A model generated the notes under the pieces. That model was not told the origin of the DNA, did no database searches, and was given only the letters and a program-made list of their open reading frames with translations. From Microbacterium gorillae (GTDB lineage Bacteria; Actinomycetota; Actinomycetes; Actinomycetales; Microbacteriaceae): a stretch of DNA of 64,000 nucleotides. Both the position numbers and the translations under genes were made by a program. Every line of letters begins with the position of its first letter. Position 1 is the first letter of the stretch. The stretch spans positions 1 through 64,000 of the forward strand of contig NZ_LN648875.1 in NCBI RefSeq assembly GCF_000826185.2, read 5' to 3'. This document shows positions 58,770-63,698 of this stretch, piece after piece.

Positions 58770-58832
58770 ATCGTTCTGACGACGATACTCACGGAGCCGA
58801 TGAAAGCTCGATCACCCTTCGAAGGAGAAGCA

Positions 58833-60134
58833 GTGAGCACGGAGAAGCGGCCCCTCGGGCAGCGCCCCTGGTGGGTGGCGAGCGTCGCAGGCATGGCGTC
58901 CTACATCGACGCGGCAGCGATCACCTCCTTCAGCGTGGCGATCATCAGCCTGCAGTCCTCGCTCGGACTGACCGATCTCCAAGTCGGCGGCGCAGCGGGC
59001 GGACTCGCAGCCTCGATCGCGGTGGGCGCGCTGATCGGTGGGCGGCTCGGCGATCGATTCGGCCGCCGGCCCGTGTTCACCGTCACGATGGTTGCGATCA
59101 TCGTCGGGATGCTGGCGCTGGCCTTCGCTCCGACCTACCCCCTCATCCTCGGCGCCGTGATCCTCGTGGGGCTCGCGACCGGCGCCGACCTGCCGGTGTC
59201 CCTGGCCACGATCTCGGAGGCCGCAGATGACCACAACCGCGGCCGGCTCATCGGATTCACGAACCTGCTGTGGCTGGCGGGCATCGTCGTCAACGGCATC
59301 CTCGCCGCCGTCTTCGGCGACCTGGGCCGGCCCGGCGCGCAGGTCCTCTTCCTTCACGTCGCGGCGGTCGCCGTCGTCGTCCTGCTCGCGCGCCTCTCGA
59401 TTCCGGAATCGGGTCGGTGGCTGGCCGCCCGAGCGGAGCGCGCCCAGGGCGTGCACACGGTGCGCGCCGACCGGGCCGGGTTCCGCGACCTGCTGCGGGC
59501 CCCCTTCCTCGTGCCGTTCGTCGCTCTGATCGTGTTCTCCGCGCTCACGAACCTGCAGGGCAACACCAACGGCCAGTACCTCACCTACATCATGGTGACG
59601 ATGGGTGGCCTGTCCGTCACGACCGCCACCCTGATCGCGCTGCCCTCGATTCCGCTGACGATCCTGGGCTTCGTGTGGTTCATGAAGATCGCCGACGGCC
59701 CCCACCGCATGAGGTACTTCGCCGTCGGCGCGGTCGCGCTGCTCGCCAGCGCGCTCACCCTGGCCGTGTTCGGCGTCTCCGTGCCGTCGATCATCGCATC
59801 GACCGTGTTCAACGCCGTCGGCGCCTCGTTCGCCTTCGAGGGCATCCAGCGCGTGTGGTCGCAGGAGCAGTTCCCCACCCTGCTGCGCACCACTGCGCAG
59901 GGCGGCATCATCTCGATCGCGCGCATCGCCGCCGCCATCCTCGCCGTCTTCACCCCCACCCTGTTGCACACCATCGGCGTGCAGGGCGTGTACGCCGGAC
60001 TCGCCGTGCTGTCGACGATCGGCCTGGTGTGGGCGTGGGTCGTCTTCCGCAGACGAGACGCGCAAGACGAATTCGACCTCGAAGACGCCACCGACACCGC
60101 TGCAGGCAGCGCAGACCTGGAGACCGCACGATGA
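58833..60134 (+). CDS. MFS transporter (sugar/glycoside type)
   Basis: A 433-residue twelve-helix permease of the sugar-porter-like group: GGAAGGLAASIAVGALIGGRLGDRFGRRPVFT is the helix 2-3 motif, LPVSLATISEAADDHNRGRLIGFTNLLW resembles the helix 4-5 region, and FEGIQRVWSQEQFPTLLRTTAQGG is later. GTG at 58833 has GAAGGAGA. Overlaps the rhamnosidase start by ATGA, so it probably imports the glycoside or its rhamnose. Confidence 0.9.
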   Translation: MSTEKRPLGQRPWWVASVAGMASYIDAAAITSFSVAIISLQSSLGLTDLQVGGAAGGLAASIAVGALIGGRLGDRFGRRPVFTVTMVAIIVGMLALAFAPTYPLILGAVILVGLATGADLPVSLATISEAADDHNRGRLIGFTNLLWLAGIVVNGILAAVFGDLGRPGAQVLFLHVAAVAVVVLLARLSIPESGRWLAARAERAQGVHTVRADRAGFRDLLRAPFLVPFVALIVFSALTNLQGNTNGQYLTYIMVTMGGLSVTTATLIALPSIPLTILGFVWFMKIADGPHRMRYFAVGAVALLASALTLAVFGVSVPSIIASTVFNAVGASFAFEGIQRVWSQEQFPTLLRTTAQGGIISIARIAAAILAVFTPTLLHTIGVQGVYAGLAVLSTIGLVWAWVVFRRRDAQDEFDLEDATDTAAGSADLETAR

Positions 60135-63055
60135 GCATCCCCACCTCGACCACCCCACGCTCCGCAGCGGACGACGCACGGGCCGCCGCGCCCATCGCAC
60201 TGCGGACAGACGGTCGGTACGAACCGGTCGGCCTCGATGGCGACCGACCCGTGCTGTCGTGGACGGCGTCTCACTCCGCCGCGTCCGCCGAGGTCCAGGT
60301 CGGCCGCCGCGATGGCTTCGCCCCCGCCGACCTCGTCTGGGCCCCGGGCCGACGCGCAGGCGATGCGGCGTTCGGCGCAACGTACGCGGGCCCCGCTCTC
60401 CTGTCCCGCACGACCTACGCGTGGCGGGTGCGCACCTGGGACGACGACGACCGGGTGTCGGAGTGGAGCGACGTCGCGACGTTCGAGACCGGCATCCTGC
60501 ACGAGCACGAGTGGACCGCGTCCTGGATCGGCGCGCCGGCGCCGGCGGGCAAGCGCAAGAAGGATGCTCGGGCGCTCTACTTCCGCGGCCGGGCCGCTCT
60601 CTCGGCGCCGGTCGTGCGTGCCCGCGCGTACGTGACGGCGCTCGGCTGGTACCGCCTGTTCGTGAACGGGACCGATGTCACCGGTCACGCCCTGGTCCCG
60701 CGGTGGACCCCATTCTCCGAGTACGTCGAGTACCAGGTGTACGACGTCACCGAACAGTTCCGCGAAGGCCTCAACGCCATCGGCATCGCCGTCGCCGACG
60801 GTCGGTACCGAGGCACCCTCGGCGTGCTGCATCGGCGTGCGAACTACGGCGACCGGCTCGGCGTCCTCGCCCAGTTCGAGGTTGACCTCGCGGACGGCAC
60901 GCACGTCACGATCGGCTCGGACGGCTCATGGCGAGTCGGCGACGGACGCATCCGAACCGCCGATCCGAAGACCGGCGAGCGCGTTGACCTGCGCATCTCG
61001 GAGACCGATTGGCTGCATGTCGACGGACTCACAATGAATGAGACGCTCGTAACGGCCATCGACGACGTCCCGCCACGGCTCATCGCCGAGCAGACCGACC
61101 GGGCACAGATCGTGCAGTCCCTCCCCGGCATCGTGTCGCGCACGCCGTCCGGTGTGCAGCTGATCGACTTCGGCCAGAACTTCGCCGGCGTCGCGCGCGT
61201 GCGCTTGTCCGGTCCCGCAGGCCGCACGGTGAAGCTTGAGTACAGCGAGGTGCTCACCCCCGCGGGCGAGCTCGACACGAAATACCTGCTCGATCTCGGG
61301 GCCGGGGGCGAATGGTTCCAACGCGACGAGGCCATCCTCGCCGGCGTTCCGGTCGACTACACCCCCTGGTTCACGATCCACGGGTTCCGCTACGTCGCCG
61401 TCCACGGCGTCGATCGCGATCTGACGCCCGACGACGTCGAGGGTCTCGTGCTGTCGAGTCGCATGGACACGATCGCCGAGTTCCATGCGTCCGACCCGCG
61501 CCTGGAACAGCTCTGGCACAACGCGTTCTGGTCGATGCGCTCGAACTTCGTCGACACTCCCAGCGATTGCCCGACGCGAGAACGCTCGGGCTGGACCGGC
61601 GACATCCAGATCTTCAGCCCCACCGCGCTGCAACTCGCCGACTCCGCCCCCTTCCTGCGCCGCTACCTGCGCAACGTCGCCACCGAACAGGCACCGAACG
61701 GACGCATCCCGGCGATCATCCCGGCCGAGGAGTCACCCGGCCACTCCACGAACATCCTGCTGGCCCGGCTCGCGAGCACATCGGTCGGCTGGGGTGATGT
61801 GGCGGTCATGCTGCCCTGGAACCTGTACTGGTACCGCGGCGACACCGACACCCTCACCCGCCAGTACGACAGCGCGAAGGCCTGGGGCGACCAGATGCGC
61901 CGCCGCGCCGCCGGAAAGCGCCGCCCTGCGCGCCGGCTGCGGCGGGGGGCCCGAGGGCTCCGGAACCCCCCGGCGGGCCGGGCTCGCGGACACGTGGGGG
62001 GGGGGGGGTGTGGGGGCGGCGCGCCGCCGGGGCCCCTGTAGGGGCCCCGCGGCGACCCCCGCCGCCCCCCCCGCCAGTACGACAGCGCGAAGGCCTGGGT
62101 CGACCAGATGCGCCGCCGCGCCGCCGGAAAGCGCCGCCTTGCGCGCCGGCTGCGGCGGGGCACCGGAGATCTCGAGCAGTACATCCTCGACACCGGATAC
62201 CACTGGGGCGAGTGGCTGCGGCCGGGCACCGCCATGCTTCCCGACATCGCCCGCAACCTCACGCTTCATCCGAACAACGCGATCTCGACGGCGTACTTCG
62301 CCAACTCCGCCCGATTGCTCTCGCAGATCGCCGCCGTGCTCGGCGACGAGCAGGATGCCACGACGTACGGCGACCTCGCGGTGAACGTGCGCCGCGCCTG
62401 GCGCGCGGCCTTCGTCCGAGACGGCGGTGCCCGCATCGGCGAGGACAAGCAGGACGACTACGTGCGCGCCCTCGCCTTCGGCCTCCTCGAGGACGAGGCC
62501 GCTCGCCGTCGGGCGCTCGGACGCCTGGTGGAACTCATCGACGCGGCGGACGGCCACCTGGGCACCGGGTTTCTCAGCACGCCGATGCTGCTGTCAACCC
62601 TCGTCGACGAAGGCCGCCCCGATGTCGCCCTGCGCGTGCTGATGCAGACGAGCAGTCCCTCGTGGCTCGGCCAGGTCGAGCGGGGCGCCACCACCACCTG
62701 GGAGACGTGGGAGGGGTACGACGAGAAGGGAAACGCGAGCGAGTCGCACAACCACTACGCGTTCGGCGCGGTCGTCCAATTCCTGCAGGAGCGGATCGCG
62801 GGTCTCGCACCGCTCGAGGCCGGCTACCGTCGCATCCGCGTCGCACCCGTGATCGGGGGCGGGCTCACCTCGGCATCCGTCCGCATCGAGACACCGTTCG
62901 GTCCGGCCGCGTCGGCGTGGACGCTCAGCGGTGAGAGCGTCCGGCTCACGGTCACGGTCCCGGCGGGCACCGAGGCGGATGTCGACCTCGAAGGCGAGAC
63001 GCACACCTTCGGTCCCGGCGTTCACGAGGTGACCGCACCGCTGCGCGCTCGGTGA
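60131..63055 (+). pseudogene. GH78 alpha-L-rhamnosidase, frame broken by a 213 bp duplication (possible assembly error)
   Basis: Hydrolyses terminal alpha-L-rhamnose. The first part (60131-62041) covers the N-terminal beta domains (SWTASHSAASAEVQVGRR; DARALYFRGRAAL; WYRLFVNGTDV; a GQNFAGVARVRLSG segment) and the catalytic region FVDTPSDCPTRERSGWTGDIQIFSPTA. It stops at a TAG at 62039. The rest (in frame from about 62075, with DTGYHWGEWLRPG, STAYFANSARLLSQIA, TTTWETWEGYDEKGNASESHNHYAFG) continues to 63055. The 213 bp unit at 61862-62074 is in phase; removing it joins both halves into a normal ~903-residue GH78 enzyme. Confidence 0.88.
61858..62160 (+). repeat. ~88 bp near-perfect direct repeat flanking low-complexity DNA in the rhamnosidase
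   Basis: The block beginning CCAGTACGACAGCGCGAAGG occurs at 61861 and again at 62074, about 88 bp with two visible mismatches. Between them are ~125 bases of near-homopolymeric G/C, including a run of about 13 G (near 61996-62009) and GGGGCCCC-type palindromes. Such sequence is typical of a mis-joined or error-rich read end rather than of a real gene. Confidence 0.8.
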
Positions 63056-63146: not shown

Positions 63147-63698
63147 ATGCCACGCAACAAGGACATCGCCACGCGACCGCCGCTCAGCAGCGAGGATCGT
63201 GCCTCGCTCGTCGCCCCCGACGGATTCGAGGCGAGCGTCGAGTCCCTCGTGGTCTGGGCGAACTCGGCCTCGCTGCGGCAGAAGCTGATGGCGGCGATCG
63301 AGTTCCCGCTCCCCGATGACCTGCTCGCCTTCCTGCTGCTGAACCAGCTCGTCTACCGCGGTGCGGGGCGCGCCACCGACATGGCCGAGGCGATCCAGAC
63401 CAGCACGTCCAACGTCACCAAGGTCGTGCGCCGGCTCGAGGATGCGGGTCTCGTGACGCGAGGCCCCAACCCTGAGGACGACCGGGCCATCGTCATCGCG
63501 CTTACCGAACAGGGTCGCCTCGCCGGGCACAAGATCATCACGCAGATGGATGCCCTTTATGGGGCGTCTTTCGCCGACTGGGACGCCGCCGATCGTGCGG
63601 ACTTCCAGCGCCTGGCGATCAAGTTCGCCCGCAGCCTGGACACCGCCTCCGAGCGAGCCGTCTCCTCGGTCTCGGGCGTCCCCCTCGCCGGCTCCTAG
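63147..63698 (+). CDS. MarR-family transcriptional regulator of the glycoside locus
   Basis: A 183-residue regulator: ASLRQKLMAAIEFPLPDDLLAFLLLNQLVYRGAGRATDMAEAIQTSTSNVTKVVRRLEDAGLVTRGPNPEDDRAIVIALTEQGR gives the full winged helix with the D-R wing, and helices on both sides for dimerisation. GGAGG is eight bases before the ATG. It follows the rhamnosidase terminator, so it has its own promoter. Similar operator-like sequences before the MFS gene suggest it controls the transporter, rhamnosidase and esterase. Confidence 0.92.
   Translation: MPRNKDIATRPPLSSEDRASLVAPDGFEASVESLVVWANSASLRQKLMAAIEFPLPDDLLAFLLLNQLVYRGAGRATDMAEAIQTSTSNVTKVVRRLEDAGLVTRGPNPEDDRAIVIALTEQGRLAGHKIITQMDALYGASFADWDAADRADFQRLAIKFARSLDTASERAVSSVSGVPLAGS

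Follow-up and report, generated by a model that had tools for sequence, protein, structure and literature searches.

A 213-bp interruption of a GH78 rhamnosidase gene in the Microbacterium gorillae assembly is very probably an assembly error

In the genome assembly of Microbacterium gorillae (GCF_000826185.2), a gene for a GH78 alpha-L-rhamnosidase is split by 213 extra base pairs, and this raises the question of whether the gene is broken in the chromosome or only in the assembly. The window analyzed here is the whole stretch of 64,000 nucleotides from position 1 to 64,000 of contig NZ_LN648875.1; the assembly has 12 contigs, with an estimated completeness of 99.96% and an estimated contamination of 0.34%. 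Five Pfam domains of the family, Ig_Rha78A_N, Bac_rhamnosid_N, Bac_rhamnosid, Bac_rhamnosid6H and Bac_rhamnosid_C, were found above their curated cutoffs along the window gene, as in a bacterial GH78 alpha-L-rhamnosidase. The rhamnosidase N-terminal, concanavalin-like, 6-hairpin and C-terminal domains lie in order over the two gene halves, and the insert cuts the 6-hairpin domain (Bac_rhamnosid6H) in two. The extra residues and the stop codon, both of which we attribute to assembly, are all that sets the window gene apart from such an enzyme. Its C-terminal part was 67% identical to an Agromyces albus locus in the best segment. A second GH78 rhamnosidase gene, a paralogue, is located on the opposite strand 2 kb downstream (G000:C12:65225-66115, minus strand, in L100). 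It has an open frame of 1013 codons and 61% identity to the window gene along the C-terminal part; near it, judged by eye, are translations resembling short-chain dehydrogenase and acyl-CoA enzymes. The features of the locus are collected in the table.

Table. Features at and around the interrupted rhamnosidase gene
Feature	Position	Strand	Basis or remark
MFS-transporter gene	58800-60134		Precedes the rhamnosidase gene
GH78 alpha-L-rhamnosidase gene, assembled with 213 additional bp that carry one TAG	60131-63055	+	Pfam domains, reading frame
Core copy 1	61859-61947	+	2 mismatches versus 62072-62160, offset 213
Right tail of copy 1, G/C-rich, ending in G13; putative decayed end	61948-62008	+	Ungapped and gapped tests
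Left tail of copy 2, in which the DNA just upstream of copy 1 recurs in decayed form	62009-62071	+	39/61 match
In-frame TAG within the extra stretch	62039-62041	+	Reading frame
Core copy 2, running on into the normal downstream gene	62072-62160	+	Match to copy 1; relatives
MarR-type regulator gene	63147-63698		After the rhamnosidase gene

The preliminary description had reported a block of about 88 bp repeated 213 bp apart in phase, homopolymer-rich DNA between the copies, and a GH78 frame broken by the insert, and all three statements held. The repeated core is 89 bp long, and its copies differ only at 61887 and 61926. It was the sole ungapped local self-match scoring at least 40 at offsets of 60 to 699 in the 64-kb window. 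Since 213 is 71 x 3, the two halves of the gene share one frame, and the TAG is the only stop in that frame ahead of the gene end. The filler between the copies (61948-62071) has a G+C content of 88.7%, versus 70.4% for the window; only 18 124-bp segments are equally G+C rich, all starting between 61928 and 61952. The window's only single-base runs of at least 8 are found here, a G13 (61996-62008) and a C8 (62065-62072). A search of the rest of the genome gave, at its threshold, no source for the filler. The sequence between the copies has the look of low-quality sequence, being very G+C rich, carrying both runs and consisting in part of a decayed upstream copy. One point was absent from the earlier description: the repeat continues to the left of the block, where it follows the upstream DNA less and less faithfully, and looser matching widened the repeat pair to 61791-61960 and 62004-62173, at 81%.

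We compared the gene with 11 relatives, the paralogue and 10 others drawn from 25 loci (L062, L071 and L073-L085 were left out). The extra residues were missing in all 11: a region of 142 residues in the window translation is 68 to 75 residues long in them, and near-identical neighboring copies like those of the window were lacking. The codon that includes 61887 specifies valine in every one of these relatives, as it does in copy 2. In principle, the stretch could belong naturally to a GH78 subfamily, as an in-frame repeat or a variable insertion, in keeping with its in-frame length and with the natural-looking tandem repeats found elsewhere in the genome (L119, offset 378). However, it contains a stop, splits the 6-hairpin domain and is missing in every relative compared, which leaves a natural insertion with a negligible probability.

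In our judgment, the 213 extra bases are very probably an assembly or gap-filling error. Most likely, the stretch is present a single time in the chromosome, and the GH78 alpha-L-rhamnosidase gene around it is intact and ordinary. Two read or contig ends that truly share about 89 bp would have been placed end to end instead of being overlapped, each end trailing off into unreliable base calls dominated by G and C. The resulting junction would then consist of two adjoining noisy tails with a core on either side. The duplicated core, the decayed upstream copy to the left of copy 2, the mismatch direction, the look-alike junctions elsewhere in the assembly and the lack of the extra residues in the relatives compared are observations; the origin of the tails as read ends, the manner of joining and the intactness of the real gene are inferred.

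The two tails in the window behaved differently. Positions 62011-62071 matched 61798-61858 at 39 of 61 bases, which is the best plus-strand place in the window; this score was reached by 1 of 63818 plus-strand places, namely the 61798 place itself (mean, 20.5; standard deviation, 3.5). When gaps were allowed, 1 of 4942 random places matched the score of the left tail and 9 of 4947 matched that of its inner 48 bases. A reverse-strand score of 40 was found at 61995, a place overlapping the tail itself. By the logic of the proposed error, the right tail of copy 1 should resemble the DNA to the right of copy 2. It did not do so above chance: the ungapped comparison with the true downstream sequence gave 16 matches in 48 bases, a value that 29678 of 63857 places equal or exceed, and the gapped score was reached at 2940 of 4947 random places. 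At the join in this window, the decayed tail is significant on the left side and at chance level on the right.

Alternatively, the gene may have been inactivated by a tandem duplication that is real and recent. Its middle would then derive from error-prone, G/C-biased repair synthesis, and recombination between the 89-bp copies could reverse it. This reading is favored by the direct repeat of the core, by the in-frame length of the insert and by a right tail that is not recognizable as a copy of neighboring DNA. The decay of the left flank with distance, on the other hand, argues against it, as do the observations at other sites described below.

G or C runs of at least 11 were collected from the genome, giving 53 overlapping matches that were grouped by eye into 14 clusters. 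Besides the window, 4 of the 13 other clusters showed a core present twice and flanked by tails that decay; the offsets were 225 (L087), 206 (L094), 281 (L097) and 341 (L098). Two further look-alikes (L107, offset 333; L122, offset 209) came from a comparison sample of 20 stretches, 395 kb in all, spaced by hand over four large contigs. With the window (offset 213), this gives seven junctions, all chosen by eye, with L094 and L122 being look-alikes by eye. Two other clusters, L092 (1643-1729) and L096 (1570-1656), each hold an N gap of exactly 87 bases close to C runs, and the remaining 7 of the 13 lacked both kinds of feature. Only three of the seven offsets are multiples of three, and the in-phase offset in the window is therefore unremarkable. 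No sign was seen of a switch such as the recent, possibly reversible inactivation that the preliminary description had offered as an alternative. In the middle of the L107 junction (L107:8953-9002; G000:C12:700001-720000), there is an odd A/T-rich stretch, so that this middle does not consist only of G and C.

Pooled over the seven junctions and counted per 20 bp outward from the core, identity in the left tails was 120/140, 112/140, 98/125, 85/113, 54/87, 22/58 and 2/6. In the right tails, the fall-off was less clear, at 92/140, 90/140, 74/125, 62/113, 41/87, 31/58 and 4/6, and some sites had recognizable right tails, such as L097 with 56/80 in one line. Look-alikes at unrelated sites of one assembly, three of the seven offsets being in phase, and N gaps at two like places speak against a real duplication in the window. 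Such an event with a G/C-biased filler would have to have occurred repeatedly in this one strain. The same decayed, G/C-rich tails and look-alikes are left unexplained if two strains differing at this place were merged in the assembly of a mixed sample. The two mismatches between the core copies would fit a mixture, and the estimated contamination of 0.34% is compatible with a close strain; even so, we consider a mixed sample scarcely conceivable as the explanation.

The direction of the mismatches between copies was examined. With the alignments extended by 40 bases on each side, the window (29:2, A/T to G/C versus the reverse), L087, L097, L098 and L107, i.e., 5 of the 17 repeats in this assembly, showed a bias at P < 0.001, compared with 0 of 6 repeats in control genomes; L094 and L122 failed this test. 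Because the extended test is inflated by the G+C content of the filler, a second count was restricted to mismatches within the alignments. The ratio was then 6:1 for the window and 21:0, 2:0, 20:3, 14:1, 12:0 and 7:0 for the others, or 82:5 for the seven junctions together. Ten other local repeats of the assembly, among which the offset-242 repeat of L119 (6:1) was counted, gave 100:79. Six repeats from two single-contig genomes of the genus (G013 and G034, 400 kb each, 800 kb in total, picked among genomes without G/C runs) gave 24:27; several of the six have few informative mismatches, and one, L154, is very G/C rich. All of these sums were added by hand from the rows for individual repeats. 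In the pooled tails, C>G and G>C were the commonest changes (85/224).

The ratio of 82:5 also counts against a real tandem duplication, which we regard as very unlikely to have broken the gene. A broader version, in which an unusual error-prone repair made real short tandem duplications with G/C-biased, error-rich filler at many sites, one of them silencing the rhamnosidase, appears extremely unlikely. The reading as an assembly or read-end artifact, put forward in the preliminary description, is supported by the left-flank decay, the A/T to G/C direction, the look-alikes, the N gaps at G/C runs and the absence of the extra residues in the relatives compared. Against an artifact stand the right tail at chance level, the reverse-strand score of 40, the ratio of only 6:1 in the window alone, the choice of the junctions by eye and the failure of L094 and L122 in the extended test. 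The selection and the few informative mismatches of the control repeats, the prevalence of C>G and G>C in the pooled tails and the seven run clusters with neither feature count on the same side.

Long runs by themselves were dropped as proof of error, since G/C runs of at least 11 are present in 64 of 99 genomes of the genus. At 14 run sites in eight other genomes, taken from the places listed for the genus, no such duplication spanned the run; two of these sites lay at the end of a contig, and N is present in four of the stretches. In two-color sequencing chemistry, an absent signal is called as G. This chemistry was also dropped as the source of the runs because the L098 tails, inspected by eye, trend toward G on either side and the L097 tails toward C.

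Poor base calls toward read ends would be in keeping with what one study reports for Illumina data: errors increase toward read ends, substitutions are most frequent after GGG or CGG, and wrong calls at A, C or T are preferentially to G (PMC4787001). The same study states that a true G is mostly miscalled as T (PMC4787001), a pattern not seen here, where G>T made up 4 of the 43 changes from G in the pooled tails. False duplications parted by assembly gaps or by sequence that reads do not support are attributed in another report to incorrect gap filling (PMC9516828). The locus resembles the homotype and gap-filling types described there in having near-identical neighbors with a gap or unsupported sequence between them, and the proposed cause, read errors or incorrect gap filling, is also alike. 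That report concerns vertebrate assemblies, with duplications mainly from haplotypes, whereas the present case is a bacterium with a 213-bp unit. False segmental duplications from misassembly (PMC2864568) are similar in that a seemingly recent duplication is created by the assembler; they stem from the divergent chromosomes of diploids, whereas poor read ends are the presumed origin here.

The results serve as a warning that an assembly with an estimated completeness of 99.96% seems to contain several false duplications that could be annotated as broken genes. The signature, a short direct repeat, a G/C-rich filler and A/T to G/C mismatches away from the core, can be searched for without reads. 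The rhamnosidase gene is best treated as intact pending reads.

Several other places in the assembly bear on duplications or on G/C-rich sequence. Two head-to-tail duplications, one of 151 bp with one difference (L110:2211-2512) and one of 111 bp with no difference (L116:10291-10515), may be real or made by the assembly. At L090:1400-1680 and L091:1400-1660, about 250 bp are nearly all G and C, with many runs and without a recognizable duplicate. The offset-242 repeat of L119 (2429-2891; G000:C10:400001-420000) lies beside natural tandem repeats, its mismatches being A>C and T>G; it may represent an eighth such junction.
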